Below the pieces are notes generated by a model that was not told the origin of the DNA, searched no databases, and was given only the letters and a program-made list of their open reading frames with translations. Made by a program: the position numbers and the translations under genes. Below, piece by piece: positions 11,444 to 64,000 of a stretch of DNA of 64,000 bases (position 1 is its first letter; each line of letters opens with the position of its first letter). The DNA is from Nymphaea colorata (taxonomy: Eukaryota; Streptophyta; Magnoliopsida; Nymphaeales; Nymphaeaceae), in assembly GCF_008831285.2 (NCBI RefSeq), contig NC_045145.1, positions 21,078,802 through 21,142,801 on the forward strand. Reading direction: 5' to 3'.

Positions 11444-14400
11444 CTGCACTGAATTTTTTTGGGATTTGCCGCATCCTGCACCCGCACCCTGCACTTAGGT
11501 GACATAGACTGCACCAGCCAATTCCCTTGTCTTTATTCTGTAACTTCTATTTTTCCTATCACTTTAGAATATTTCTCTTGCTTTATTCATCTTTGGTCCT
11601 TATGCATCACTATTCATTTGTGTGCAGAGTCTGCAGACTCATGTTGTATTTAACATAGTGTATGTTACAATATGTTATGTTACTTAGTGTAACTAGAAAG
11701 GAAAAAAACTATGATACATCCCTGACACTAGTTTCAATGATGTAACCATACTGTACTGTGTTTTACTTATGATGCATCCCTAGTACGTAATACATATGTT
11801 ATGTATGGTATGGGGTGAGTTATTGACACCTTCAAAACCGTTTTTGGATTTAAAGTTGCATAAATTTCTTAAGGTTGAATATTATGTTTGATGTGCAATG
11901 GGAGACCAGGTGACTTTTCCATCTTAATTTAAGGGTGAATTCTACGGTTGTGTAAATAAGAGTTTCATATGGTAGCACATCTTCCTCAACCCCTTCCCTC
12001 TGCCTATATAGCAAAGCAGCTTTGCTTCGTTCTGATAATTTATCTACTTTTCCACTTTATGCAATAACTCCGGCATGTGTGTGATTATTGTTTTTATTTT
12101 CTTTGCATTTTTCAGGAATAATATATGCAAATGAGATTAAAGTCCCAAGGCTTAAGTCACTTTCAGCAAATTTGCATCGCATGGGAGTGACAAATACGAT
12201 CGTTTGTAACTACGATGGGAAGGAGGTTGGTACTGAATTCTTTATGTCTGCTATATTTCTGAACACTTTGTTTAGATTCTTGTGCCTGGTTATGTTGTTA
12301 ACGAGTTCTGAGAACATTGTCTATTTTTTTTTCTTCTTTGATTAGCATAAATCATAGAAAATCAATTGTTGAACATGGTTTATGGCCAACTTGCTGAATC
12401 AGATTTTTTTAAATTTCCAGAAAAGACAGACAAAAGTTTGATTTGAAGTCCTAAGTTAGTACCAAATTGCTTATTCAAAATTGTTCTTAATTAGAGCCAG
12501 CAGCCTGTAGTGTTCTCTGCGGACAATGTACTGCTGAACAATGTAACCATTGATCCACAAAAGCTTCTGACTATCTGAGTATCTTCATAAGAAGAAAGCA
12601 ACTTTCTTTAGCAGCAGGAAACTATGTTTTATTTTTAGAGTCCGTCCACGAAAGGTGTGAAGCTACCTTTGAGGTACATTTGATATTTATTAAGAAAAGG
12701 TAACAAAAACAAAGTGCAATCTTTCAAGGTCAATCTATTCTCTCCCCTAAATATTTCCCTTTTCACTAATAAATCGATTAATCAACTCATGTTTCTGCAA
12801 CCAATTGAGTCATCCAACCCAATTGGGGGGTCAAGCGCCTACTAAAGGGATCATCTGGATTTTCACTTGAATTTCTCCATGGTTTATCCATCATCTCTGA
12901 AATGCGATTGTTATCACCAACATTGTTTTAATTAGAGTGGTCGATAAGGCTAGATGATTTTTAGAGTTCAAAAATTTTCTGCAATTATAAGGAATATTTT
13001 ATTTAATTTCTTAAATCCTTCATGATTTACTTCTCTTCCTCTATTATGCAATGTGAAATTTTGTTTCTTGCTCCTGCTTTGCTTATAGTTTTTTGGTTTC
13101 TTCAGTAACCTTAGCTGCACTTCTTATAAGCACTGATCGCTGCTATATATTTTTTTTCTCTTCAAGCAAAACAAAATTAGACTTAAATTTTTGCAACATA
13201 GGGGTCTCCTAGTGTGCGACATTTTTCTTTAATCTTTACCTGTCTGATGTAGCATAGCAATTTTCAGCATAATGATGATGTGCGGAATTTGGATATCTTC
13301 TCATCCTATCCCTACCTGTATGCCTTTACCACGTCTGTAACTATTTGATTTATTCTGGGCATTACCTTTAATGTGATTCCACCTAGTTGTTTGTTCCCAC
13401 ACTAGTTATTTTTGGGAAAGCCTGTCATTAACCATAGAATGTATGTCCTCTCCTTTTGTATGTTCCTTAGCTTTTTTGAACGTTGAATTCAAAGTCAGTC
13501 CCTGCTGATATTTTCTGCGAGCTAGTTAATTTGGCTATCAACATTTAAGTATTGCTCAAATCTTCTGGCACTAATGGACTACATAAATCATCATTCTTTG
13601 AGTGACAAATGAAAATTTAGAATCACAGCAACGTACATCTGGCTCTTGCATATTTCAGTCATTCATTTTACACGTATGTGCTTGTTCTGTTCTTTGCTGG
13701 CATTGCTCTCTAGTAGTTTGGAATTGGGTTGTGTTGGGCATTATTTGTTATTCAACGAGCCTCATGCCTGTTTGCTGCATTTTGTCCCAACTGCAGCTTC
13801 CGAAGATTTTGGGACCAAATTCTGTGGACAGAGTGTTGCTAGATGCCCCTTGTAGTGGCACTGGGGTGAGTCACCTTCGTTAACTGTGTTGCGTTTTTCT
13901 TTTTTAATAGATTTGTTCTGGTTCCTGTAAAGTGCCAGTGAAAAATACTTGCTTTGTGCAGGTTATATCCAAAGATGAATCAGTCAAAGCTTCTAAGAGT
14001 GCAGAAGAGATACAGAATTGTGCTTATCTACAGAAGGTATGCATGTCTCTGTTACTCTTTGTGACATGTTCTCTATAGCCTGAGGCTGTATACAAAAAAT
14101 ATGCATCTGAAATTTCTTGTTGCGTACTGAATAAATGTTTGCTTTAACATTTATCTGTTTAGATATCTAATGTAGAGTAGTTTCAACTTTGATGTTGACA
14201 ACTTGACATACAGGACATACTGCTGGAGATTGGACAGAAGTGTATGGCTAGTTGGTGTCATATAACACAGTTTTACACTATTTCTGTTCGCTATATGCGA
14301 GTCATCTTTTTCTTGTTAGGAAGCTATCAAAGCTTTAGTTTGCTTTAAGATATGAACATAAGCACCTTTGCTGGTTGTTTTGGTTTTTTTTGTCTGATTC

Positions 14401-16240
14401 TGGACTTGATTTATGAATCCCTGTGAGAGATATTAATTGAAGATGGGGTCAGAATCTGAGATTAGGTAGACTGCTGAAAATTTACTAATTTAAGACGATC
14501 GATGACCCGGAATCTGCCTGGATTGCTGATAGCTACCGTCTGTTGCAGTATATAAATATTCTTGTCCATCAGTAGCTCCATCATTTTAAAGCAATTTGAT
14601 TTTACTTGTCAATTGTCTCTTAATTATGTCAATTCTGTTTTCTGTTACAGTTTATTTTTCACCACAAAAAAATCCAAGTAATAAATAAAATTATTTGTTT
14701 CAGCAATTGATTCTTGCAGCAATAGACATGGTGGATGCTAATTCAAAAACTGGGGGATATATTGTCTACTCTACTTGCTCCATAATGATTCCAGAGGTTC
14801 ATTTCCTTCAATAAGCTTTCTGTTAAGTAGTTTCAGGTCATTTTAATTAGCTAAATCTTTTCTTGGATAATATTTCCTTATTATTTTGCAGAATGAAGCC
14901 GTAATTGATTACGCATTGAAGAAGAGGGATGTTCGCCTTGTGCCATGTGGACTGGACTTTGGTCGTCCTGGGTGAGTTAAATTACCTTGAAGAACAATGT
15001 GTTGGACATGGGAATCTCATGACGTGGCTGATGCCCCTAGTATGACTTTCATAGTTATGGACTTACGGCAGTGCTTACTTGACGTTGATTGTTGATTTAT
15101 GTTGAACCAACTTTCAAGATAGTTTGGATCATGAGACGTTGAACCATTTGGTCAATTTTAGGACATATCTAAAATTTTAGGACATATCTAAAAAACAATC
15201 ACTGGGAAGCCATTTACTGATATCTCTTTTTGTTTCAACTAAAATTTGCTTAGGGTGTTGGTTTAGTCTGGATTTTATACCATTACGTTATTTTTTTATC
15301 ACTTTTCAAATGTTACATTTTTATTGTTGTAATATAAGCAGCTCATGTGCTGTTGTTCTATTTCTTCTGACTAGGTTTATACGGTTTAGAGAGCACAGAT
15401 TTCACCCTTCTTTGGAGAAAACAAGACGCTTTTATCCACATGTTCACAATATGGATGGTTTTTTTGTTGCTAAGGTATTGCCCTTTTCATCACTTCATCT
15501 GCTGTCGTATAGGAGGGAGTTTTCAATTTGTTGAATTTCTCTGTGATGGCTTTATTTATCTTGTAAAATATATTTAATGATAATTTCTATGGTAGTGTTG
15601 CCTTGTGCTTGAACAAAAGCACAAAGGAGTCCTAACGATGATTAAACTTGCAGTTGAAGAAAATGAGCAACTCAAAACCAGTTGAGGCTTCAGATGGTCC
15701 ATTGGGAGAAGTTGAACAAGGACCTGTGACTATGAGTGTTGAAGAGGGTGTTCCCAATGGAAAGTCCGAACACTCACAGAAACAGATGCATGATAATAAG
15801 GAGAAAAATGGTTTCACAAGAAGTGATCATAAGAAGAATGCTAAAGGAAAAATTCCTGTCAGGTCCAAGCCTATGAAAAAGAAATTCTCACCCAAGGACA
15901 AGCATCAGCCAGGTAGATCTCCTTTCTCTCCATTTTGATGGGAATACATGCTGTCCTGACAGATTAATGTTTCTGGAAATGATGTGGGGCCATTAATATG
16001 CTCCTCTGGTAGTCATTCTGTGCCCGGAAAATGCTCCATTTTGGTGTCTTTGTGGGCTGTAGAGGACTCGGTGTTTTCGACCATTTTCTGGCAGCAACTA
16101 ATAGCTTTTGCTCTTTACATGAAAATGTTTATGTAGGGAAGAGAAAAGGAAAGGATCGCCAAAAAAAGTTTCTGAAGCCTGATTCGGCAAAAGTGAAGCG
16201 GCAGAAAGGAAAAGCTAATGCCCCAAAAAAACCAGTTTGA
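6541..16240 (+). CDS. NOP2: NOP2/NSUN-type 25S rRNA cytosine-C5 methyltransferase
   Basis: Nucleolar enzyme that methylates a cytosine of large-subunit rRNA using SAM and supports 60S assembly. Seventeen exons join in frame to 629 aa: 6541-6841, 7090-7232, 8092-8155, 8254-8387, 8531-8614, 9580-9654, 9736-9807, 9912-9985, 10498-10550, 12116-12225, 13797-13865, 13962-14036, 14704-14796, 14892-14971, 15375-15474, 15654-15912, 16137-16240. The N-terminus is basic, then strongly acidic with an Asp run near residue 62-72. The catalytic core has the SAM motif APGGKT (318-323), DAPCSGTG with Cys389, and YSTCSI with Cys443, the expected nucleophile. A Lys-rich tail resembles a nucleolar signal. All phases and GT-AG junctions agree. 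Arabidopsis NOP2A/OLI2 is the likely counterpart; NOP2A and NOP2B cannot be told apart here. The start is chosen because it is the first ATG after the TATA box in the right frame. Confidence 0.95.
10551..12115 (+). other. Large NOP2 intron 9 with AT-rich repeats
   Basis: A 1.57-kb intron splitting the codon after the SAM-motif exon. It holds a low-complexity stretch of TTAGTTAT-type repeats near 11160-11215 and a long AT microsatellite at 11399-11441. No coding frame of note. Confidence 0.7.
11399..11441. repeat. (AT)n microsatellite
   Basis: About 21 AT dinucleotides inside NOP2 intron 9. Confidence 0.95.
12226..13796 (+). other. Large NOP2 intron 10
   Basis: A 1.57-kb AT-rich intron between the exon ending NYDGKE and the exon carrying DAPCSGTG. 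I see no second gene or clear transposon in it. Confidence 0.7.
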
Positions 16241-18270
16241 TTTATTCTTCTAATCTGTATTGGATAAATTTTCTGATGTGATTGTAGTAGGTCAGCAAGA
16301 GCTGCCTGCATATAATCATGCATCCACAGTTTTGACTATGCAGATAGGAATGTAATCCTATTGCTTTATGTATATACAAGAATGTTGAATCTTTTATTTG
16401 TCGTGGAATGTGATTGAGGGCGTCTCCTACTTTTACCGTGGTAATAATTCTTTCATTGTTATATATAAGAAACAAATTTTAGCAGCTTTCTGGAAGCCTT
16501 GTGATTGAGTTTTTTAAAATGTTGAAAGAAGCATGATATTTTCAGGGAAGACATTTTGAAATGTCGTGTTTTTATAGTATTGATTGGATAATGCTCCTTT
16601 TCTTTAAAATCCAATCTGTTTTCATATTTACTGCATGTTGTTTATATTTTTATAGTTTGTACATCAACACTACCTGAAACTTGAAAACGTCTCAAGATTT
16701 TTCCTGAGGGGGATAACTTTGGTTAAAATCAAGGTGCATAATAAAATCATAGAAAAACGAAGTGGAAAATTGATTGTGAGGATTTTGAGGAAGGCTTTAC
16801 TTCTCCATGTTAAATGGTTACTAAGGGGGTCTACACCTGTAAAACTCACTTGCTCTGACCTTTTCTTAGAAGTGTTCCATGTGAAGGCACGAAGACTTTG
16901 TCTAGCTTTAAATGTCAAATGTATGGGAAAGGAATGTGGTCCGTTTCGTTTTCCTACATAAATTGTCGGGACTTCTATGGAGTGAACAGTTTTATGGCTT
17001 GATTTGTTTTGACCAAGCGACTACTGAACCCTTTCGCGGTATAATCCTGTTACTTTTACCCTTGGTTTAAAGCATTGTTAGTTGTTACTGATCTTGGTTT
17101 TGAAGGTAAGTTTGTTCTACAAAAAGTTTTACATTTGTGCTGCCCTCCAAAGAAAAATGGCTCGAGAAAGTCGCCTCACTGTCATGTATTCGTTGGTTTT
17201 AAACCCAAGACCGGCTCATCTTTCAGAAACCAATTTCAGCCTTATGGGAAGAAATGCTGAAGAGGCGCTCGGTCAAGTAGACGATCAAATGGGCGGTGCC
17301 CTTCAATGCTAGCTGTAGTTTTCAACATAATAACCGAGAAAGAACAGTCTCTTGTGGACCGGGGCCCAGTCAATTAAGTCACTGGAACAGGTTGGTGCAT
17401 GCAATAAATGGTCTTATTGGGCTTTACTAAGAGCCTATACGTCACACATTCTGGATCAAGTAAAACTCTGGGCCACCGCTGCATGCATTTCATTAGGAAT
17501 TAATGACCTTTTAACACCACCTTCTAAGAGATGGTTAGTCCGCCTCATAAGTATTTTTTCTCACCCAATTAAGCCACGGGGAACATGTCCAAATGTTCAT
17601 ATATGTGTAACCTGAAATATTAACATTACCAAACAGCTGTTTAAATGTAGTCCGTTGGATACAGATTTTTCATGTTAGAGGCATTGGATTGGAGTTAATA
17701 TTAACATTGGATCGAATTTTTACCAGCGTAAACATCAACTTATGCCAGAGCTTTACGCTCACGTGGATCCGGCGCCATCATTTTCCAGTTTTAAATGTCT
17801 GTCATGGGGTCTAGATTCCCACATTCAAGGCTTCAAGCCAAGAAGCCGATCATTGTCAAATATTAACTCCATTTTTCTCCCTCAAGGAATGCTCTAGGGT
17901 CCGGGTGACCGTACGATCAGGATCCGGTTTCGAACTAATGACGTTGAGGTCATGGGGAGGAGGGCAGATACCTCTCTCTCCATGCATGACAAAGAACTGA
18001 AAAAAGGTTATAAATGCCAAATTGAAAGAAAGGCAGGAAAGTAGGACACACCCAGATTTGGCACTTCCCTTTTAAGGCATGACGGTGAAGGTGGGGAAGA
18101 AGAAGCCACCATTTTTGGATAAACCACCAACTTTAAAGGGCGTAGCACGGCTTTAAAGTTGGGCAACATATAAGGCATGTACTTTCCCCGGCAATACACC
18201 ACTAAAACCGGTTGTAGCCGGTTGTTTCAGTTTATGATAAACTAATCTTATTTCCCTCTCGAAAGTATAG
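16241..18270. other. Non-coding spacer downstream of NOP2
   Basis: The left part is the 3'UTR and terminator region of NOP2. Short frames here lack coding character and family similarity. The right end (about 17900-18270) leads into the TATA box at 18280 and may be its promoter. Confidence 0.5.
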
Positions 18271-18277
18271 GGAACAG

Positions 18278-18289
18278 CTTATATATAGA
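18278..18289 (+). promoter_or_regulatory. TATA box, candidate pri-miR156/157 promoter
   Basis: CTTATATATAGA followed by GGCAGGAG and a CT-rich leader (18352-18376) looks like a plant core promoter with a pyrimidine-rich 5'UTR. It sits about 970 bp upstream of the miR156/157-type hairpin on the same strand, with no protein frame between them. A primary transcript starting near 18310 is inferred. Confidence 0.5.
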
Positions 18290-18351
18290 AGGCAGGAGTT
18301 CCACTTTGCTTCACAACTTCATCGGAGTATGTCGAGCTTAACATTTCCATC

Positions 18352-18376
18352 ACTCTCTCTCTCTCTCTCTCTCTCT
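18352..18376. repeat. (CT)n microsatellite
   Basis: About twelve CT units just downstream of the TATA box at 18280, then a short CA-rich tract. Confidence 0.95.
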
Positions 18377-19250
18377 TGCTGTCTCTCCACAGACACACAC
18401 ACACATACACACAAATATGTATATATGTATGTACAGTATTCTCTTTATTTGTGTTTTCTCTGTTGCTACTGCGATCGTTCTGGATATTTCATATACATTT
18501 GTGTCTGAGGTTGTCATGTTCAATTTCGTTTGCTGGATCTCTTTAACTTTCGTTTGCTCCGTCTTCATGTCATTTGTTTTTATGTCTGGTCGTCAAGAAT
18601 TTCCACGCCGTTACTTGTTTAACAGATTATGAACTAATTGGCTTCTCTATTGGTGTATCTATAAGAACCACTTTCTCAATGTGGGTATGCGTCCCCAAAC
18701 ATGCACACGAACAGACTGATTTTCATTTTGAAAAGTGAATTTGATGCCATTACAAACAATGTTTCCGTTTCTTCTTGTTTTTCTGTTCATCTAGTTCTTA
18801 TATATATTGCAAACAATTTTCCCATTTCATGAAAAAATTATTGTTTTCTGTTTTTCATGGTAATCGTATTGTTGCTGTCTCTTTTCAATGTGAGGTTGAA
18901 TACAGACACTCATATAATATATCCAGTGAAATTTTTTTATAAGATGTAAACCAGATCCTCTCTCTTTACTTTTAGTGGTCAGCGTCCTTGTTTGCAAATT
19001 GTTTACATGCCTATGGAGGCTTACAGATGACCGAGGCGATCCAGATTCCTGTGCAGCAAGAGTCCATGTGGAGAGGAGACAAAGGATGAGAGGTTTGCGT
19101 TAAACCTTCGAATATAATACTTGGAATAGTCCAAGAAAATTTTAAATGGCTTTCACTTTGCTTCTTGCTTCTGCCGACATCTCAGTGACTCTCTTTTGCC
19201 TTTTTTTCTTTGTTGGTGGATGGAGAAAGCAAGCATGGAAGGACAGAATA

Positions 19251-19368
19251 GAGTGAAGGTTGGTGTACTGTTGACAGAAGATAGAGAGCACAACCCAGCA
19301 CAGGCAAAATGGATTTTGCTTTTGAGGGGAGTGTGCTCTTTACTCTTCTGTCACCATGCCTCTCACTC
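19251..19368 (+). ncRNA. MIR157: MIR156/157-type microRNA precursor
   Basis: The mature-like sequence at 19271-19291 begins TTGACAGAAGA and ends AGAGAGCAC; it matches the miR157 form of the miR156/157 family at all 21 positions as I remember it. The opposite arm at 19333-19354 (GTGCTCTTTACT, then CTTCTGTCAC) pairs with it almost completely, with one bulged C, one G-U pair and a mismatch at position 1. The loop (19292-19332) has its own small stem (CAAAAT against ATTTTG). The lower stem continues on both sides (GAGTGAAGG at 19251 against CTCTCACTC near 19360). This is the expected plant precursor architecture with the miRNA on the 5' arm. The family represses SPL transcription factors and sets the juvenile-to-adult transition. 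miR156h is nearly identical, so the exact member name is uncertain. Confidence 0.9.
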
Positions 19369-22300
19369 CATACCTCTCTCTCTCTGTGTGTGTCTGTCTC
19401 TCTATCTAACCATCTATCTACCTGTATGTGTGTGTGTGGAGCGTGCGTTGTTGTATCTTCCAGAGACAAACCAGCTTTTCGGCTTTCGTTCAAAACAGGT
19501 AATGATCTCAGCTGTTGTTCACGCCATGTGTTGTTGCGCGCAAGCTAACCAGCATAGTCATGTTCAAACATGCCTGCTTATATGTGTAACCGATGGTGCA
19601 AGTGCAGATACTCACGGATATGTTTAAGCAAGCACATACACAGATATTCACTTTCAGGCATCTATGTGTACAGTGTCCATGCACAAACAAATCAGTCTCA
19701 CAAGTCTAGTTTCTGTTTTAACACCTCCATAAAACTCTGTAACCAATAGTTTTTCTTATCTTCAACAAGGGAGAAGAGGAGATGACCGGCCCTCTGAAGG
19801 GTAGGATGCAAAAACCCTGTCCTAACCATCATGGAGTTGAGTTCATTGAGCCAGGAAGGGAAGGTACTCTAATGGCCTTCTTTCTTCCCCTTGTTGGTCC
19901 CTCTGAGAAACGATCAGGCTCATAACCCTTTGCGCCTTTCACCAATCCCCTGAAGGCTTGGATGCCGCCTGAGTAGAACCCATATCGGAGCTGTCGAGGT
20001 ATAGACCTGCCGCATCAAGGCCTTAAACATAGATAGCCCGTATTTTTTCTATCTGCTACCAGTTCTTAATATGCCTTTCTACAACCAGCATCCCGGTGCA
20101 GAGATTGGAAATGAGCTAAATACCTTGTGTGGATTTTGCAATTATTGATTGTACTGCATTAGATCAAAATCAAACCTCGATTTGTCTAGCTGATATAGAC
20201 AGTTAAAAAGGCAAATGCATGGTTTTATGTATGCCTGCACATACAGTCAATTTCAAATAGAAGACGCATGTACATGTAGAGGCATGCATACAGAAACACA
20301 GACAAAGAGAGAGAGAGGGAGGGAGAGAGAGAGAGAGAGGTTGATTTTTTAAATGACGAGGAATCCTTCAAGGACTGAGTAATTAATGGGGCCTGCTCCC
20401 CAAAAGGTAAACGCCGGGTGAGCTCCGGCTACCGTGCATTACGAGGACAATATCATAAGGAAACTGATTGAAGATGAAAAAAGAGAAAGTACTGTGAGTT
20501 GCTAGAGGTTTCAAGTACTGTTCCATTCAAAACCATAGAAAATTTTTGTTCTTTTGCTGTTTCTCAGAAAAATGTATATTCTACTGAAAAGATTGGATTA
20601 GAAAAATGCCAAGTGGTAGCAAATTTTAAGGTTCTTTCTCAGACCTTGGCATGTTGTGCTTTATGTTGATTTGACTGATCAGAGATTACATTTTGTTACT
20701 TGCACGCCTGCACACATTCATCTGCTCCACTTTCTCATGTGCATTCATTTTCTTTTCCTCACCACTGTTATAGGCAAACGTGATCCTGGATCCCAATATT
20801 TTTCCTTATTTCACATTCATTAAAAAACCCATGACTCGGCCTACAAGGTGCATTTTCACTTAACCAGCATGTTAATCTTCATTTAATTTATGTCTTCTTA
20901 AACTGTCTGCCAGGTCCGTTAGGTTGGTAGTTCTGTAGCATTTTGTTGAATTGCATTCTGAAGTTCTAAAATAAGTTTAACACTTATTCTGTGGAGTAGA
21001 TTTTGCCAATCTGTTTTGCGTTAGCAGCATTTTCTCCCATAAATTGGAAGTCTAAGAGAGGCACGTAGGGGGACCTTGCAATTCTTTTTTCAAAATCTGG
21101 AGATGCACATTTGAGGCCCCTGCAATTCTCAGTTCGAAATTTGGGAGCTGGGTTAAGCGTATTTGAAAAACGGCAGCAGTGGGAGGCGGAAGACTTTTTG
21201 ATATTCATTTTGATCCCCAACAATGGTGAGCAGATTGCAATTGTGGGAGCTCCTAAAAAATGGAGGAACAATATAAGGATCTTCAGTGGTTTGGGAAAGG
21301 TGGTGCGGCTGCATTTAACCTGGTTGATCAAAGAGACAGGCTCCATTTGTTCCATTTGTAACCCATCTTGGGAAACGGTATCTCTGTTTTTCTATAGAGA
21401 CGCTATGCATACTGCCTTGGCTTGGAATCACCTCCCTAACCAGGGGGAATAATGCCCTTTTCTGTTTGATGATCTGGGCGTTTTGGTTTGTCTATAATCT
21501 TCTGTTCCTCTTATTCTACTTTTTGGACAATGAAAAGGTCTGAGGACCCTATTTCCCCACCGCTTGCATTGGAAGATATGTCATGCTTGCAATTCTCAGT
21601 TCAATATTTGGGCAAAAAGCAATAGTTTTAGGAATGCTTATTTGGTAGCTTGATAGCAGATACATTCTACATGAGTGTCCCATGAAGATAATCTTCCATA
21701 CCCATTAAGTCAGATTCAAGAAATACTAAAACTAATGTTTCTATGAATCTAGTGTAATCTTTAAGGTAGGTTCATGAGACACTCGCAAAATGTCCTTGCT
21801 GTCAAATGACCCCTAAAAAAATGCATTAAGTTTTCCTTTTTGTAGATGTTACTTGGTTATGTATACAAAACAGCAGCCGCTTATGGGAATGTTTACTTGG
21901 TTCAATGTTAAGATAAAGGCAATTATCACGAGGAATTCGACTTCCCCAAACTAGAATGAACCCTCCTCTTGTAAATGTCGACTGTCCAGATGCCTCCCAT
22001 TCTTCATAGAACTGTGAACACATTCTGATTCGTGTTTCAGCATCATCCACACAAAACTACTGGAGATCAAGATCGGGTCACCTTGCTTGACTTGGTGACC
22101 GTGCCATACCGTAAGGACCACACTTTTGTTTGGTTACTCTACCCTCGTGAGTATGCTGACAAGCCAATTAGAGATGCGTACCCGCAGAGTCTCTGATTTG
22201 GTTTGCACATGCTACACCTCGAGATCAGATCAAAATTTTTGCATAAACATATGAACAATCTTGTCCGTAAATGTTGTCATTTCTGAGACATTTCATTAGT

Positions 22301-23283
22301 ATATTTCAACAATGCTGCTTTGGTTACTCGAGTTATACACCCAAATTTTAAATGTATTATCCCTTTCATTTGGATGGGTAGATCAACCATACTAACCTTC
22401 CTTAGAACTCTTTGATGCTCGTGCTGGACGTCAGTTTGCTTATACAATTGGTGCGCCAAGAGGATTCGTACCTCAACTGCCTGTCTATTAGCAAGAGACA
22501 TCCCTCCATCAATTTGATTCCGACATCTAACAGTTGACTAAACGGATCTTGCTTCTCGCGCATCTATATTTGCTTGGTGGTTTCGTCTTACTTTCAGTGC
22601 TTAGGTGGTTTTTGTCTTACTTCACGCAACAAACCAAATATCTATACGTTGCTGGAAGCATCAAAGCTTCCTCTTTCCACATTTGTCAAAATTTGTCTAG
22701 CATAAATGCACCATGACATCGAACCCCAAGGGGCGAAGAGTAGCTGGTTGAGCTGACAGATCGTTTGTCAGTTTGATTATCGTGAGCATTACTCTTCCTG
22801 ACTGCAACGGTAGATGTGTTGCACTCTAGTTGACATGTGTTCTGCTTCCCTCCCAGGTCTTAAAGCACCCTTGAACCTCGGAAGGTAGGAAAAAAAGAGA
22901 CGATTCGTTGCCAATTAGACCATGATATCTCATACCATATGGAGGGGTTTGTCAAGACATTCTGCACAGGCTGGTCTGAGTGTTATGAAATTAAAAAACA
23001 AAAAGAAGGCATCATGTAAGCCTTCAGCCGCCCCTCAAAAGACTCGGGACCGGTCAGCAATGGAGAAGCAATGAGGTCACAGACTTCGGTTGGTTGGGGA
23101 GCTTTCAGAATAGAGCACTCCTTGGAAATTATAATCCAAGTAGTCCTCGTTTTTGAGAAGAGATTTTCAGTCTTTTTTCTTAGACCATAACTTTCCTTGT
23201 TGAAAATATGAGAAAGAATCTCTGGATAACTGGGATGACTAACTTTAGCTTACCCAGATAAGACCCAAATATCCCTGAAACAA
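19369..23283. other. Non-coding intergenic DNA
   Basis: The left part is probably the rest of the pri-miRNA. There is a GA-rich microsatellite at 20307-20340. A phrase TGCAATTCTCAGTTC...ATTTGGG occurs at about 21120 and again at about 21590, a diverged duplication. The longest frame (21111-21452) has no recognisable family and no codon pattern like the neighbouring genes. No gene is supported. Confidence 0.5.
20307..20340. repeat. (GA)n microsatellite
   Basis: GA-rich dinucleotide tract with a few GG interruptions. Confidence 0.9.
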
Positions 23284-23715
23284 GTTGATATTTAAATCGG
23301 TTTCATACTTAAAGCTCTATAAGAAATTATTTTAAGGCTTTAGTTTGAAAAAGTGAGTTTTTCCTTTGGTTTTCTAATACAATACAACGAGTATTTGCGT
23401 TCTCGAAAACTGAGAACTACTCTGAAGTTGATATTCAAATCGGTTTCATACTTAAAGCTCGTATAAGAAATTGTCTTAGACTTTAGTTTGAAAAAGTGAG
23501 TTTTTCCTTTGGTTTTCTAATACGATACAATGAGTATTTGTGTTCTCGAGAACTGAAAACTACTCTTGAAATTGATATTCAAATCGGTTTCATACTTGAA
23601 GCTCATAAAAGAAATTGTTTTAGACTTTAATTTGAAAAAGCGAGTTTTTCCTTCGGTTTTCTAATACAATACAATGAGTATTTGCGTTCTCGAAAACTGA
23701 AAACTACTCTTGAAA
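23284..23715. repeat. Three tandem copies of a 143-144 bp unit
   Basis: Copies start at 23284, 23427 and 23571. Each begins TTGATATT(T/C)AAATCGG, contains GTTTGAAAAAGTGAGTTTTT and ends near GAACTACTCT. They differ by a few percent. No coding frame runs through all three units. It could be part of a minisatellite or a fragment of a larger transposon. Confidence 0.9.
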
Positions 23716-24788
23716 TAAGAAACCTGACCACATTCGTCTGACCAATCACACACATGCTATCGCCATGGCAGTATTAAAATATGAAGTAAAGGCCTTTTAA
23801 CCTGAAAGTCTTCACCTGGGTAAGCGGGATGCTGAGAAAAAGCCACAATAAAATTTGAACTCGTGACCAGTCAATCTGCTCTCCATGACTCACAAAACGT
23901 CAAAACCTGAGCGATTCACCTGAGGCCGCTAGGAGACACTTGTGGCGAAAAGTAAGCAGACTACCAAGAGCTTCCCTCGATTAAGTTTGCAGGCTAAAAA
24001 AACCATTTTACTTTGTAAGAAGTCTAAAAAACACATTAACTTCCTTTTAATACCAAAAACATATGTTCTGATCAAATTTCAACAATACACCAACCTGATC
24101 CTGTAACACTGATTGAACATTACGTCAACCGATCTTTTAGTACGTACGGAAATTGAAAAACCCGGATTAGGTATGATGGAAAATGGTGCACAAGATAAAA
24201 GCGTCGAGTGATTGTAGTAATTCTTCCCCCCCTTTCCAAGGCAATGGCAACTTTAAGTCAAGTCAAGCACATTTTTTACCAGCAAGCCGCCAATGACGTT
24301 TTTGCAAAGGAGAAAAAACTTAGGTTCTATACTTAAAATTTCTCTAAGTAAACAAGCAAAAATAATGTGGGTAGTATCACCTACCACGGGCCAACTCTGT
24401 CGCTACCGGCACACCCACTACATAGCTGTTGTAGCAGTAGCGTATGTTCACATGGCGGTCCACGAGAAGCCAAGCTATTTTTCTTTGCTACCTAGCACTA
24501 GGGTTTAGAGTTGTTTCAATAGAAACCAAAGTTGTCATATGATGTATGCATATTTGCTAAGCTCAATATCCTACCGTTGCCCAGTTGATGCGGTAGGCTC
24601 AAAATGCTTACTTGGCTCTTGAAGACTTGAACCCACCTCCCAGTTGCAAGACCCGACTCAATCTTGGCCTAGCAGAGACCCCTTATCCCCCATCCAGGCG
24701 CGCACACACACACATATGAGAGAGAGAGAGAGAGAGAGAGAGAAAGCACACATATGAGAGAGAAAGTTACAACGCACACGACCATTGC
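23716..24788. other. Non-coding spacer, 3' side of the CAR gene
   Basis: No gene seen. It contains the GA microsatellite near 24717-24745 and, next to the CAR stop codon, the probable 3'UTR of that minus-strand gene. Confidence 0.5.
24717..24745. repeat. (GA)n microsatellite
   Basis: About thirteen GA units, preceded by a short CA tract; located in the probable 3'UTR of the CAR gene. Confidence 0.9.
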
Positions 24789-26960
24789 TTAAACCCTCAT
24801 GTGAGGTGAGGGGGGCTGAGTGGGGCTACTGACATCAACCCACTTTAGCTTCAGCTCCAACTCCCCTGACTTAACGTCACACAGCCTCAGCCACACTTCC
24901 TGCACAATCTCCCCCTTGACGCATCTCACAAAGCTGTCCCTAACCAAGCAGTTGTCCCTCCCTGGGATCACTTTGCGCATCTTGGTCTCTTCAGCTCCGG
25001 CCGAGTTCTTAAGTGCCCGGCGCAGCCTGGAAGCAGATACGATCGGATGCAGGCTCAGGCGTGTGTGCCCCATCTTATCGTCTGGTTTGAACCGATCCTT
25101 GTTCAATACCTCCTGTGGATCAAGCGGTGAATATCCTTATGAGCGACCATGAAACCTGACAAGCTCAATGATCTCATATCTCAGCTTATTTTCTTGGACC
25201 TCAGCTTATTTTCTTGGACCGGCCACACTGCAGCTGTCTACATCAGTTCTGTAGGGATGCAGCGGGGTCCAGATCACACAACTTCAGCCGAGTCCCTCAC
25301 TCCTACATAAGACAGTCCACATGTTTTTCTAACCCTTGACTAGAATTCTTGACCAAAACCACTCTGAAGAAGACAGGGAACTAACTCTTCTGTAGCTGGA
25401 GAATGACGCAAAGCAATCAAAATTGAAAAAGGGATGCCCGTATGATGACGGGTAGTGACGACATTTACACAATTTTTTCACCAATCAGTCCAAGTTGAAA
25501 GAGAAATAGGTAGCCCCGATAGGCACAGCTCAAAGGCACGAAGTTGAAGCATGTTTCCCAGTTTGAACCCATGGGGGTTATGCTCTTATACCAGGTAATG
25601 CAGGTGGATCCTATATGCAAGTTAAAGCATATAGAGATCTCACCACCTAGTACCGATGCAGTCTAGACTCTTGCCCAAACGATGGTAGGACCTTTTTTCT
25701 CACCCAGAGAGGGAAATCGGTAGCATTATGAGCAGACAACGAACACATCGTTACTTGTATCTAGCACTGGCAATGAAAAAAGGACGACTCAAAAAATCAG
25801 TTTCGGAAATATTCATGAGATGATAACCCTGAAAAATGCCAAAATAAGGATTGCTTGTTGTCAATGTTCATTCCCATAAACACGATTTTACTTTTCAATA
25901 CGACTGTTGGGCTCTAACAGTGCTTAACATCATAAAAACCTTGTCATTCTATTGTAAATGGTGCAATTGCCATTTGAATTGGTTTAACTAAGATTCCGCC
26001 TGAACTAATGTGTAATGGTGAAAGGAGGTCGCTGTTTAATAGCTTCCCACCAAAAGCCGGTGCCATATCATGATATCAGGAATTCACTAACATGACGCTT
26101 CAAATGGAACTTAATCACAATCTGAAATGAGGAAAGCTTACCAACTTTAGGATTCCAGCTGGGTTGGTAACCGCGAATGTGAACTCTTCATTCCAAACAG
26201 GATTAAGACAACTATTTATAACCTTTGTTCTGGCAGTCTGAGCATCAATGTTAGAAATCACAAGTTAGCAACAGGGGTACAACTGAGAGGAATAAACTAT
26301 ATCAGAACCCGGTTTTGAAATCCTTTAGATCCATAATTTTGAAGTAATAGCGCCATATAGTTGGATATTCTGTGAGACTACAAAACTCCCGAAAGTGGAA
26401 ATAGTTGCTTACCAATATCTAATAATCTGTCAGATTATTTTAGCCATAAGATCGTGATTATTCATTGCTTTTGCTTAAATTATAACATGTAGCAGGCCCC
26501 TTCCTTTTTACTGCTATTAAGCTGGAAAGTGAAATTTTCTTATTTATTGATAGTGGGACCAAAAGAGTTTGAAATCGCATGATCAACTGACACTACTTCC
26601 ACACACCATGAATATAAGGCAACGTTGCCAATCAATTGTTTATAAAGAAATAGCCTATTCCGATGCGCTTGACGAAAAACCATAGAAAACTATCCGCCAC
26701 AAATAGCCTGATCATACCCAGTCGAAAATATGACTTGCAACAGGGTTTACCTTACATAAAGTATCAACAAAGTCTTTTACAACCGTACGCATATGCCAGA
26801 AATGTTTGTTTCTGTAATAAAAAAAAAGTAGATAGGGAAAAAAGATTGCCTGGTTTTCAAGCTTGAGAATGACATAAGGATCGCTGCTTGTAAAATCTCT
26901 GATTATCAGCCTTTTCCCTTGAAAAACTGTGACCTTTAGAAACCCAATAGTCTCTCCCAT
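24789..26960 (-). CDS. CAR11: C2-domain ABA-related protein, CAR11-like
   Basis: Small single-C2 protein of the plant CAR family, which binds phospholipid membranes with calcium and recruits PYR/PYL abscisic-acid receptors. Three exons on the minus strand join in frame to 176 aa: 26960-26850, 26237-26142 and 25112-24789. The protein starts MGETIGFLKV. Loop 1 carries D22 and D27 (RDFTSSDPYV), the core has NPVWNEE, and loop 3 reads LNKDRFKPDDKMGH. The CAR signature region follows and the protein ends after the ELELKLKWVD strand. The wording matches my recollection of Arabidopsis CAR11 better than CAR1-CAR10. Oddities: the first loop-3 Asp is Asn73, and intron 1 starts with GC, not GT. It lies tandem with PDS5 on the same strand. 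Confidence 0.9.
25113..26141 (-). other. CAR intron 2
   Basis: A 1029-bp GT-AG intron. It includes a short perfect tandem duplication (TCAGCTTATTTTCTTGGACC twice, about 25180-25220). No coding frame of note. Confidence 0.75.
26238..26849 (-). other. CAR intron 1 with GC donor
   Basis: On the minus strand the exon ends CAG and the intron begins GCAATC at 26849-26844; it ends with CAG at 26240-26238. No GT site nearby keeps the frame and the conserved ENQ-TARTKV junction. Confidence 0.7.
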
Positions 26961-27003
26961 AGAGCTCCTTTCAGACAGCTTCTTCCAGCTTCTGTTTGTA
27001 AAC

Positions 27004-28903
27004 CTGTTACATGGCGAAGGGCCTCAGTCCCAACATGACACAGCCACACTTCAATAAAAGAAGTGGAACCACATATGCACGCTCAGCTGGGGCGTAAAGT
27101 CGTGCAACATACAAAAGTGACTGGGCGTGTTTTACAAGTCACCTTACATGTATCTTAAAAGAAACTGTCTGGTAACGAATCCCTAAAAAGTTCATTCTGA
27201 ATACTGCCGGTAGTACATACGACTGGACATTAGATAACATGGTTTCTTCCAATAACTGCACCAATCCCATTAATTTAAACTATAATATCCATAGGTTGAT
27301 CTAATACATCTTTTTTGCCTTTCCTACCTTCTTTTTATTATGATAATCATGCAGTAGAAGATACTCTAGGACCAAACCCAGGACCCTCATGTGCTGGTTC
27401 CAACGATCACAGACTTAGGTGCAAAACCAGTAACTAGTGGAGTGAACGATGAGTGCACGAGGAAGAAAAGCTCAAACTTTCAAAAACTTGAGTATCAATT
27501 GTCAATAATTGAGATCTCACTTTTGGCTCTACGGGAAAGGTATAATGCACGCAAATCCATTAAAATAACTAGAAGAAAAAAGTGTCCAAAAGAAAACACA
27601 TGGTCGTCTCTCTGGATCGCTTTATAGTTCTGGTGCACAACATTTAACATATTGAGGTCTGGCCATTGAAAAAGCAAATCCATTCGGGTATATTTTCTGC
27701 AATTGCCAAATCAAGAACACTTACGACAAACAAGTTGAAATTTCAAAAGAACGAAACTCAAAAAAAAAAAAACAATATGTCATCATGCTCCAACAAAAAC
27801 AGAGAGAAAAATAAATGAAGTGGTGTCACAGATGAAGACAGGAGAAATTTAATGATCACAGGAGCTCGAAGATCAAGCACATAATGATCGTCATTCGTGG
27901 CTAACACAACAATCAGAGGGAGAGTAGATGAGTGAGTAGGCGGCCGATTTAAAGGGAGGAAACCTCTACATAACGAAATCTACACCAGTTCTATCCATAC
28001 GTTTACCCAATTTTGAGTCCAAGCTCCAAAGAGATGGAGTTTTTCTGTCCATAAACTGCGGAATTTTGGGTCCAAAAGATGGATAGGTTTCTAGGGGGAA
28101 CTCCGAGCAATAAACACGTCCAAGACAGAGAAAACATTATCTTTTTCCTCAAACAAGAAAAAATCAACACACAATTCTCATTAGTCTCTCCACTCAAATA
28201 AAGGAAAACAAAAAACGCAAATGAAACGAGAAAAAATAATGGGATACCTTTCAACCAACTGCTAAATCAATCAGACTAACAAACGATCGTTAGTTCAGCA
28301 GAGAAACGAAGGGAAACTCTAGGCTAAAATTCCAAAACAAAAAGTAGCTCTCAGCTTAAATATACACTTTCAAGAGGGAAAAGATACCAAAAGTTCCACG
28401 GAGAAAATGAATATTAAGCGGCTCATATTCAACTCATAAAGACAAACTAATCCAACGTGAGCCATGTGGATTACCTACAACAGGGTAAGCAGAATAACTC
28501 CTGAACTAAAGGAAAAAGAAACAAGAAGTGGAAAGGAAACGTAACTCTTCCATTGAAAATTTATTTCTAAACTAGAAAACAGCGAACCGCACTGCAGAAA
28601 ACACAATTGTGGCGTAAGATTTCCGTTTTACTGACGGGCAACAACGAAATTCCGACGGTGAAACGGAAAACCAGCGCGAGACTCTCAACATTCTGTCAAC
28701 GGGAAATATTAGGACAAGAATTCGCCACTTTTAACTGAAAAACTCATCAAAGTTCACCCGGGAATGAATATTGCAAGCATAGCCCGCCTTCCTTCGCTGT
28801 GAAAGCGACGAAAAAGCAGTTGCAACGGACAACTAAAATTATAAAACCAGTGATCATCCCTGTTCCCGAAGAAGAGACATACGGAGCAACAGCAGGGCTT
28901 TAC
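27004..28903 (-). other. Probable 5'UTR intron of the CAR gene
   Basis: On the minus strand a good donor, CTACCAG|GTAAAG, lies at 28903, and a possible acceptor, GTAACAG|GTTTAC, at 27004, about 40 nt before the ATG. The 1.9 kb between them has no coding character. The acceptor has a weak pyrimidine tract, and a site 12 nt further on (AAACAG|AAGC) would also work. Confidence 0.4.
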
Positions 28904-39500: not shown

Positions 39501-42500
39501 GCACATACTTCAGCGCAGCAGTTTTCTTGACAATGTTAACCCAAATCCATTTTTTGCAAACCTAATTAACTAAGGCTCATGAATTCAGATTCATTCAAGT
39601 CAGACCTTGGTGTTTGGGTGCTATTAGCATCTGCTTGTCTTTGTATGGACACAACATCAATATCATGTGGCAAGATTAACTCAAGAGTTAAGAACTCAAG
39701 ACACACTTGTATAACCACTAGGTCCCCAAAACCAATTGCATGGACCAGATTAACAATCATTATTTCAAGTTAGTCTAAGGTGCAAAAATATAAAATAAAT
39801 GGTAGTTTAAAATTCTTTATGTTTTAGTTAGTTTGCTATTACTGCAGACTGCAGAGGTATTCTATTTTCTTACATGTTCAAAATGAAGTACTTAACTTCA
39901 TATATTACGAGGAATTACCTTTGTGTCCTCGAATCTAGATTCAGCATCATATGCAAACCATGAATACCGAAGGTTCATTGGTTTAACCGGTGACTGGCAA
40001 TTTATAGGACACTATTCAGTCTTAGCATACAGGTCAACAGTCAAAATCATGAATATGCCAGAAAAAGTACACATTTGCACATGTTATTTTGGGAAGTTTC
40101 AAAATTTGAGATTCGTTTATTTATTAAAATTTTGATCACAAAAAATGAGTCCCACAATATCAAGGAAATAGGCATGTTTGTGCTGATACACTTCAATATT
40201 GAGGAATTGTCATGTTTATGCTGGAAGTTTTATGAACCCATGGACTCCACAGTAAAATATTCGTTGTCCATGTTGTCATGGCTGTACATAAAATACGTGT
40301 TTAACCATATTTATTTTACTTGCCAGACACTAAATATTTGAATATTCATACTTAATCCCACACTATAAGTCCAGTTTGAACACAAAGATCATGCAAGATA
40401 GCTACAAGAGTAAAATTATAAAAACACCTAATGCATTCAAGGAGAGTTGATAAAGTCAGTTGTACCGATAAATTGGCACAAACGCTGTAGCACTTGGACG
40501 TTCGTCAAGATTAGGGTATGCATCATCATGTGCAAGGGAATGGACAAAATATGCAAGTATATGCTCGGGATAGTCTGAAGGCACGTTCTGGCCAGATGGT
40601 ACATAAAGCTGTCTTGATCTTGCTTCACGGTAGAGCATCTCGACAATTTCAACAAGACACTGCCTGTACTGTAGAACAAAGACAAACAAGGTATTAGCCT
40701 AGACTCCTAGAAACATACATAAAAAGCAATAGACACCAAACTTCCAGGATTATTGACCTCTTTGTACTCATGTTCAGTCATTCCATCCATGCCCAGTGGA
40801 AGTGCAATTACATACTTTGCATCCACAAGCCGATCTTTTGCATACTGGTAAACTTTACTTAGGAAAAGCTTCCTTACTTGTGGATAAATATCCTGCCAAG
40901 TGCCAAGTATTAAAAAGTTAAGGCCACTAACAATATAAACAAACTTCCAACCAAATTCTGATGTAACTATGGATTTGTCTACTCAAAATGACAAATATCA
41001 GAGGCAGCAGCAGCAGAAGATTGCATTCACTTTGTTTAACAATAGAATATTAATTCAAAAACTAGCAGAAATTTTCAAACAGAAAAACCCACCTGTGAGA
41101 TTCTTACAGTTAAATGAAAGACATCAATTGGTATTTTATGGTCCCAAACTTTTGATAATCGTAGAATTGCAGTTGCTGATGCAAGCCTTAGATGGGCCTT
41201 ATCCACAGCACTGAAAGGTTTAAAAGGATAAAAAATCAAGCAACTCGTAAATATTCAAACTTGCACAAATATAGGTAATATGCATAAAAAGCCCATACAA
41301 CATGCTTCATTTTAACCAGATTCAGAAAATTGCATCAGTAGCTGGTCTACCTTGATTCTACACCCTGTGACACCTCCCCAAATGTCAGAACGCCTTTAAG
41401 CATTTCCAAAAGGTTTTCAATCCCACTTCGTACATGAGCATCCTTAACAGGCAAATAGCTCTTTACCAGGGTCTTGATAGCAAATATCTGCAAATATCCA
41501 CAAAGATTCACTATCTTAACTGGAAGCATCATGGTTACACATTTGAACGTAACACTCTATGGAACTTGTGTAGAAACTGAAAACAGTTAGAACCCAAGAT
41601 GACGATTTCCCATAGACTGACCTTTAGCAAGCATTTTTCACTTTTGTCATCCCAGTCTGTTTGAGAAGTGCTCTCAACAATCTGACAGAAGGTACACGAC
41701 ACTGATTAGACTGGAAAGAAGCAAGAAAAGCAGAAGGGGGGAGAATGTGAGTGGTAAAGGATGGAAAAGAAGGTATCGCTCAGTGTCAAGATGCAAAGAA
41801 GTTCACTTATACATACACTTCCATCCATAATTTTGTCTGATATAAACCCAACAATTTCCTCCTCCCTGGTTTCAAATATTGGCATGGCAATTTGTGCAAT
41901 ACAACCCAAAGATTGCAGGATGGCAGGAAGATGAGTTTTTTTCTCGAGCATATCCACCAGATGCTGAACTTCCAGGAAGAAACACCACCCCATGTAAGAA
42001 CCTAGGTCATTATAATGTAACAGATGCTTGCATCTAAAACTTACATGCAATTTCTGAACATGGTGAACATTTATCCTCGATAAAGACAAAAAAGCCAACA
42101 AACCTTATAAAGCAATGAAAGTGACTTAAGGCCATCGTCGATTGTTATTGCAGCAAGAGCTTGCACTGAGTATTTGGCTTGCTTCCTTGTACCTTCTAAG
42201 CATAGTCTCTCTAATAAAATGTCTACTGATCTGAAATAAAATAAGAACGTGAACATCAAGCTAAGATTTATGTGAAATGACCCAGACCTTTGAAGTGTAA
42301 ATAGTCATACCCAGCCAACATTGGGAGTTGATCTCTAATAGATCCACCAGCCTTTGCAAGAATATGCACAATTCCTTCCTTGATTGTCTCATTATCATCT
42401 TTGAGGAGAAGGACTAGTTGTTCTTCTGCCCCTCTAAAAATTGATGGAAAGAAACTTGCAAGGATCTGAAAAGTAAACAAGAGATGAAAATATACAACAG

Positions 42501-45500: not shown

Positions 45501-48500
45501 ACTTATTTATGCAAGGCTCAAGCTTTACAGCACATTGCTTAATAACATTCATAGCTAGTCTTCGTCCAGCTGAAGATATATCCTGGTATCCAAAGAATTC
45601 CACAGAATCAACCATCAATAATTCTGCCAGAAACATAAATTATAAACCACAATGATACAATCTGTTCAGCGATGTTACTTGACCTACCTTTTTTTGTTGA
45701 CCAAGTGCAGCTAACAAAGCAAGTACAGGTTCCTCTTGGACATCCTCACTCTCATCAATTAAGAGGACCATAATTGACTGCATTGACATAAGGACAGCTT
45801 CTGGATGATCATTACTGCAATCACAAAGATACTTCCATGAATACAGGATAATGAAGGAAACATTATTTTCACCACGTGACAAGTTCAGCCATATAAACAG
45901 ATCACGCATCAGATGTAACTACCAAATGCATCACTTGCGTAAAGCAAATATTCCACATAAAGGCAGGGAAAAACATCCCATCACACAGATCAAACACAAA
46001 GTAACAATGAAAAAGCTGTTAACAATGATGGCAATAGCTTAGAGTCTTAGACATTGGAGTTCGAAGTATTTCCCCCTTTTAGGCAGGAGAGGAGGATTGT
46101 CAGGAGCATTGAAGAATAAAATTATGAAACATATCAGGAGAAACTGATCCCCAAAATGTCATTCTACCGAAACTCCATCCCAACCATGTTTAACTATGAA
46201 TGAAAAAGATCCACAGGATTCTAAAAGATCCACAGGATTCTAATCCAATATACTACACCATTTACTTCCAAGAAAAATAAGTTTCACACGTTAATGAAAA
46301 CTTTTTCAAATTAATACTTTGTCCAAAAAACAGATAATTCTGATTTTGTGTTTCAATAATTTGAACTTTAAAGCTTAGTCCAAGAACATGGGAATATCGG
46401 AATATTCTTGAGCCGGAGTTGCTTTATTAACTGAAAATTTAGAAACTTTTTAAATAGTAATAAACTTAACTGAAAGATTATCTAAACCATAGAAAAACTG
46501 TGTTAATAGGACGACAAAAAACATGCCAAGCAATGTGCAGCTCACTTGGCTAGGGAGTTGGCATAAAAATAGGAGGAGGTTAAGAGTGCAGTAGAGAGGT
46601 GCATCTCTCAACCAGCTTTTAGCTGGATGCAGTTTACCAACTAAAAACAATGATGAAACCACTATTTTGAAATAGGAAACCTTTTATCATGCTTTCAGCA
46701 TCAAATCGACAATTGCAAGTACCATTGCTAAAGCTGCAATGTTTCAAAATTTCAGTTATATTTGTGACTGCAACTTAAATTGTATAACAAGGAAAATCAG
46801 GATTTTCAAAAATTTGCATGTTTTCCTGAGTTTGGAAGATTCTCCAATCCCAATCCAGTATGCAAGTAGAATAATGAGTATTTCAACCATTGTCACAAAT
46901 ACTGGCATTTTTTCCCCAAAAGAAAAACAAGAAAAAGGAAACCAAAAAAATGAAATTTGTGATATTTTGCAAATGTAATATCAAAATAAACATATCACAT
47001 TTTTATGCTTTTCTAAAAAAAGTTAATACATTTTAAATTTTTGATGCTTCTTTTGAGAATTATCAGTAACACACCTAAAGTTTGACAATTGAAGAAAAAA
47101 ACAAGTTAGTATAAGTTATCTATCACAGCCCACAAGATGGAAAACCAGGCAAGAATAAGTAAGCTTTGATCCTTTTTCATCACCAATCTAAACCGTTTCA
47201 ATTTTCAACAACGCAACATAACCTCCAATGCAAAATGCTCCCCATAATTAAAGCTAATGCAGGAAAAGCTGTTGGGTTTGTGAAAGCAGCAGCAGTAAGC
47301 TGCATAGTTCAACTTTCTCTTGATAATCATTCTCCCTGAGAAATCAATAATATAAAAATGAAAAGTGTACTGCAATAGCAATAACAGACATTTAAGGTTT
47401 TCATTTGCTACAAAAACAATTATTACTGAAAAAAAGTAACAACAGGTGAACTTTATGATAGAGAGGACCTCAAAGGCAGAAAGTGCAGTATATTAATATT
47501 GCTTCTATTTAATCATAATATGCTAGAAACAACCAAATGCGAAAGAATTTAACTTTATTAGCTCAAAATATTCAATGGAATAAAAGCAATTGACACAGTA
47601 GCTAGTTAAAACAAATTAGATACAGGTCATTCTACTGGATTCACAATTTCATACAGCTCCCTAATCTTGAAAGCTCTTCAAAAGCAAGCTGCAGCAGATG
47701 GTTAGGCCATTAATCTTAAAGATGCAGAGTCTTGGACTTCCTATTTCCGGTGGAAGCTCTTTCTTTTTTTGTATATATGTGAACTGGTTTTATAAGCCGT
47801 ATTACTAAACTCAAGTATCAGCATTGAAGTTAGTCAACTTAGTCTTCCTCAAAAGATTAGCTCGTCCTGAACTCAAACACACAAGGTAAACATGTAATGC
47901 TCTTGTCTATTAAAATGCACAAGGGCAGTGTTATCCGTATCGCACGATATGGGCCCATATTGTGCGACACGTATTGTATAGGTTTGAAAAACCTATACGA
48001 TACGCCCACGATACATGATACGCTTGTGTATCGTAGGCGTATCGACTGTATCGTGCGATACGGGGGTCATACCGTATCATACGATACAGGGATAAAATGA
48101 TTTTTGTAGTTTTTTACAAAAGAACCCCTCTCCCCCTCTTTCTAAGCATGTCTAAAAGTTGTGAGAGGGAAAAGTTTTACTAGTTTTGCTACAAAAATCG
48201 CCCATTTATGTGATAAATCGTCAATTTAGAGGAGAACTCGTTTGTCGATAAGAAGGTTTACTCATGGTCCATGGGGATGATAGGACCTTAACTGATGATA
48301 ATTATAATATATTATTTGTTGTAAACTTGTAATGTAATCTAAAAAACTTTAAAGTTTAAACTTTAAAGTTGTGATGGATGTTTATTATGTTGCTATGAAT
48401 TTATTATTTGTCATTTCTAAATGTGTTGTTAACATATTATGGCTTATGAATGACGTGGTGAGTTTTTTTTTTATATAGAACACATTTTTTTCAATTTTTT

Positions 48501-60368: not shown

Positions 60369-64000
<3,632 letters not shown>

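Follow-up and report, generated by a model that had tools for sequence, protein, structure and literature searches.

The question raised by this locus is whether a short hairpin in plant DNA is a working microRNA gene, and whether it is best described by the letters of its mature strand or by the backbone that carries them. SPL transcripts are complementary to miR156 and to miR157 alike; the two microRNAs target these transcripts, repress flowering and time phase change (PMC12404414, 2025). The main forms of the two differ by three nucleotides, and each MIR156/157 locus is worth annotating because miR156/157 sets the timing of plant phase change (PMC12404414).

The hairpin lies in the window, which is the whole 64,000-base stretch of DNA that was analysed. 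With a probability of roughly 0.93, it is an intergenic plant MIR156/157 gene that would be transcribed and cut by DCL1 to give a miR157 that represses SPL genes. An earlier sequence-only reading had proposed a gene of the miR156/157 type, and this identity is supported by an exact mature sequence, a hairpin on the + strand, a best Rfam match that lies below the cutoff, and a surrounding gap free of recognised proteins among its ORFs of 80 aa and longer. The locus is most likely a working, ordinary member of a well-known microRNA family, it opens no new biology, and its hairpin is mildly unusual.

The mature sequence carries most of the identification. The family mature sequence is present on the 5′ arm of the hairpin as TTGACAGAAGATAGAGAGCAC, which agrees with published miR157a at 21/21 letters, exactly as the earlier reading had recognised. 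It is the sole site with at most three mismatches on either strand of the window, which therefore holds no second copy or cluster of miR157 at that limit, and 100 shuffles returned no such site. There is also no further miR156/157-like hairpin among the 25 of 28 inverted pairs listed for 17000-21500 or among the 12 lowest folds listed. As expected for a plant sequence, the exact mature sequence has 0 matches in the viral contigs and genome contigs searched, and 19221-19400 has no match in plasmids. The same 21 letters occur in 61 papers, and they are published for peanut ahy-MIR157a, which is typed to ath-miR157a and has 95,381 reads (PMC2826338), for mir157 of Sapria (PMC11773456), and for banana, where they appear under the two names miR156d and miR157b-5p (PMC4391839).

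The mature sequence sits in a strong hairpin. The segment 19240-19380 folds at -60.7 kcal/mol, as compared with a shuffle mean of -37.65 (sd 3.62, z -6.37), and 0 of 200 shuffles fold as low. Among 8,516 segments of 141 nt taken from both strands at a step of 15, this place ranks second for low fold energy. First is 47941-48081, at -72.1 kcal/mol for 141 nt, where near-perfect inverted repeats are clustered and which is possibly a repeat element.

Within the hairpin, mature positions 3-21 pair with 19352-19333, interrupted by one bulged base (C19343) and including one G-U pair (19284-19340), for a total of 19 of 21 mature bases paired. Positions 1-2 are unpaired in the minimum free energy (MFE) structure, and a T2-A19353 pair appears in an alternative that is 0.1 kcal/mol worse. 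The lower stem is formed by 19251-19264 and 19353-19368; the lower stem and loop, both of which had been said to fold, are recovered in the computed structure. The earlier proposal would have failed had the two arms not faced each other in the fold, but they do, and the mature pairing does not change when four wider segments are folded, the widest being 18312-19900. The foldback thus sets the mature strand opposite its star with few mismatches and no large loop inside the duplex, and the 8-nt one-sided loop sits at the duplex edge, where it takes in mature positions 1-2 in the MFE structure. An inverted-pair scan of 17000-21500 does not include the hairpin's arms among the 25 of 28 pairs listed, probably because the bulge splits them.

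The opposite arm had been placed at 19333-19354 with one bulge and one wobble. The pairing stands and the ends do not: when derived from the pairing and assumed 2-nt 3′ overhangs, the star should begin at about 19335 and end at 19355 or 19356. The predicted star is identical to banana miR157b* at 18/22 positions, while the 3′ arm is identical to that of Sapria mir156 at 17/19, and this arm is therefore not decisive between miR156 and miR157. Aligned without gaps, the arm of Sapria mir157 agrees at 8/22, a figure that tells little because an indel shifts the alignment.

Table 1. Coordinates of the hairpin and of the features assigned to its gene, in window positions
Feature	Position	Strand	Basis
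MIR156/157 hairpin (lower stem, duplex, upper stem, loop)	19251..19368	+	Fold of 19240-19380; RF00073 at 19271-19354
Mature miR157, 5′ arm	19271..19291	+	Exact match to published sequence
Predicted miR157 star	19335..19356 (19335-19355 or 19335-19356)	+	Pairing and assumed overhangs
8-nt unpaired stretch, 5′ side only, at base-side cut site	19265..19272	+	MFE structure; edges move in near-equal alternatives
Upper stem and 4-nt loop (19310-19313)	19292..19334	+	Like Sapria mir156, unlike the two miR157-type precursors compared
Candidate TATA box of pri-miRNA promoter	18280..18286	+	TATA word and pyrimidine run
CT-rich leader of presumed pri-miRNA	18353..18377	+	25-nt pyrimidine run
Candidate 5′ splice site (CAG|GTAATG), downstream of hairpin	19499..19504	+	Best-scoring donor in 18.2-20.4 kb

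The surroundings of the hairpin had been described as a protein-free gap. This gap measures about 8.8 kb, and the Pfam scan agrees: between 16,000 and 24,790 there are 16 ORFs of 80 aa or longer, none of which reaches a curated cutoff, although shorter exons could escape such a scan. The top sub-threshold matches in the gap are 8TM_micro (E 0.0022, ORF 18342-18629) and PLDc_2 (E 0.0059, 22280-22537). The latter is an 86-aa ORF on the - strand with a weak PLD-like domain match, and it is possibly a gene or transposon remnant. A protein-coding hairpin region was considered and rejected, as the 143-aa ORF at 19196-19627, scanned over its full stop-to-stop span of 19130-19624, has no match to any Pfam family at E ≤1. 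A tandem array of three 144-bp units with 92% matches occupies 23285-23716.

The upstream gene, on the + strand, encodes an RsmB/F-type rRNA methyltransferase domain (ORF 13602-13880, 27.5 bits against a cutoff of 27), and its last exon would end near 15,935. The downstream gene, on the - strand, is a C2-domain gene whose ORF 24792-25136 matches 4rj9_A (C2 domain-containing protein-like, E 4.8e-17) and AT3G17980. ORF 26715-27023 of the same gene matches AT3G17980 at E 4.4e-5, with Pfam C2 below its cutoff (E 0.017). Farther along the - strand, 41709-42104 is a PDS5-like (sister chromatid cohesion) ORF (E 2.4e-6, 26.1 bits against a cutoff of 27) and adjoining ORFs look like parts of the same gene, while 60372-61758 is an alpha-tubulin gene with an intron at about 61400-61510, as judged by eye from its ORFs.

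A TATA box and a CT-rich leader had been reported on the same strand about 970 bp upstream of the hairpin, and the TATA word at 18280 indeed lies 971 bp from 19251. TATA[AT]A[AT] words are common in the window, with 89 on the + strand and 87 on the - strand. By a test chosen post hoc, the word at 18280 stands alone among these on both strands: no other is followed, 20-120 bp downstream, by the start of a pyrimidine run of 18 nt or longer. With this TATA box, transcription by RNA polymerase II would begin near 18310, and the first exon of the resulting pri-miRNA would contain the hairpin. The transcript may also contain an intron from 19499, 3′ of the hairpin, as suggested by a donor scored with approximate splice weights.

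DCL1 would then cut the hairpin on the loop side first and again about 21 nt lower, which would release TTGACAGAAGATAGAGAGCAC from the 5′ arm together with a star of 21-22 nt. In AGO1, the miR157 would repress the mRNAs of SPL transcription factors and thereby delay both flowering and the adult phase; the roles of DCL1 and AGO1 are described in PMC6445950. Loop-to-base is the better guess for the processing order of the modelled hairpin, because loop-first cutting would need no tidy base. The 8-nt loop occupies only the 5′ strand, right at the base-side cut, and has two edge pairings within 0.1 kcal/mol of each other, an arrangement that suits an order measured from the loop. The upper stem is 18 nt long on its 5′ side. 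Loop-to-base processing is scored for Arabidopsis miR157d, and the pri-miRNAs named as following this order include pri-miR156b and e (PMC9023350).

The precursor backbone was compared with three MIR156/157 precursors whose sequences appear in PMC11773456, namely Sapria mir156, Sapria mir157, and a Rafflesia precursor that the paper names mir156 but that looks miR157-like in sequence. The compared segment above the duplex, AACCCAGCA...GGGGAGT, was picked after its likeness had been seen. Against Sapria mir156, 2 of 2,000 shuffles reach its score, and a manual count gives 27 identical columns of 42 in the alignment, mostly at both ends. Shuffles reach the score in 657 of 2,000 cases against Sapria mir157 and in 1,826 of 2,000 against the Rafflesia precursor, so that neither resembles the locus. 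A similar upper stem may also be shared by further subgroups of MIR156, the MIR156h type for example. Whole-hairpin alignment scores are 88 for Sapria mir156, 44 for Sapria mir157, and 46 for Rafflesia. In a search for published precursors that share this upper stem, the Sapria paper is by title the sole plant microRNA match, a result that covers the main texts of the papers searched and does not imply absence from print.

As printed, the Sapria mir156 mature differs from the locus by G rather than T at position 11 and by CUC rather than CAC at the 3′ end. The locus accordingly has T-A at pair 11 where Sapria mir156 has G-C, and a compensatory change at this pair was considered as a sign of selection on pairing. 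That idea was dropped, as the swap energies give it no support: the mature strand of the locus pairs with its own star at -28.9 and with the Sapria star at -27.3, while a G-bearing mature pairs with the locus star at -31.0. The strongest of these three pairings is the one with the G-bearing mature, and pair 11 is therefore not counted as evidence for selection on pairing.

No Rfam family reaches its gathering cutoff anywhere in the window, and a lax search was needed because the search at cutoff came up empty. Among the 23 matches at E ≤10 in 18001-20400, the best is RF00073 (MIR156) on the + strand, with an E of 0.00095 for 2,400 bases or about 0.03 when scaled to the window. This model spans exactly mature to star at the locus, but its consensus loop differs from the loop found here. 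Its score is 30.9 bits against a cutoff of 62, and that cutoff is an annotation threshold rather than a defining biological property of the family. Since MIR156 falls far under its Rfam cutoff, the identity of the locus rests mainly on an exact mature sequence rightly placed in a strong hairpin. The second match, mir-3149 (29 bits), falls on a TA/CA-rich repeat at 18395-18434; it is below cutoff, as is MIR844 (23.7 bits) in 18001-20400. Rfam at its default cutoff leaves the locus blank, and a protein-only annotation would miss it too.

Several points count against a MIR156/157 gene on the + strand: an Rfam score of half the cutoff, an empty whole-window search at cutoff, an antisense MIR156 match of 26.6 bits, a one-sided loop of 8 nt at the site of the 5′ cut that is not textbook, and weak co-variation at pair 11 against Sapria mir156. 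The low score and the loop at the base-side cut would also fit a silent or decaying paralogue, one that descends from a working MIR156/157 gene and is no longer expressed or accurately cut. The promoter signals, which are weak words, and a duplex that is not the best possible in the swap test point the same way. Such a paralogue is nonetheless improbable, as the mature strand is unchanged from the published sequence and has 19 of its 21 bases paired. A different related family, MIR535 (22.6 bits) or MIR529 (18.7 bits), or an antisense MIR156 gene at 19271-19354 on the - strand is very improbable, since MIR156 scores highest on the + strand and the exact miR157 sequence occurs on that strand only. 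These competing matches, all below cutoff, probably stem from shared letters and the mirror fold. MIR840 (22.9 bits) also matches at the hairpin below its cutoff.

The preferred reading thus remains a MIR156/157 gene, and within it the relation between mature strand and backbone can be considered separately. The mature letters are those of miR157, and the backbone is possibly of the MIR156 type, judging by one good comparator among the three printed precursors compared. A miR157 mature on a MIR156-type precursor backbone is a tentative and somewhat doubtful proposal. If it is true, either the miR157 sequence has more than one origin or this locus is an ancient form standing between the two groups of precursors, and miR156/miR157 labels given from mature letters do not follow gene descent. 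The disagreement between backbone and mature strand is a minor reason for care when plant microRNA genes are named from mature letters alone.

Among known systems, the locus has all 21 mature letters in common with the miR157a type, including Arabidopsis miR157a, peanut ahy-MIR157a, and Sapria mir157, and it carries the mature strand on the 5′ arm as Sapria mir157 does. The proposed gene model would be similar to Arabidopsis pri-miR156a, in which an intron lies 3′ of the stem-loop (PMC9023350). In its upper stem, the locus shares AACCCRGCA ... GGGAGTGTGCTCTTT with the mir156 precursor of Sapria himalayana (PMC11773456 Table 2); the middle of that stem is poorly alike in the two, and the likeness lies mostly on either side of it.
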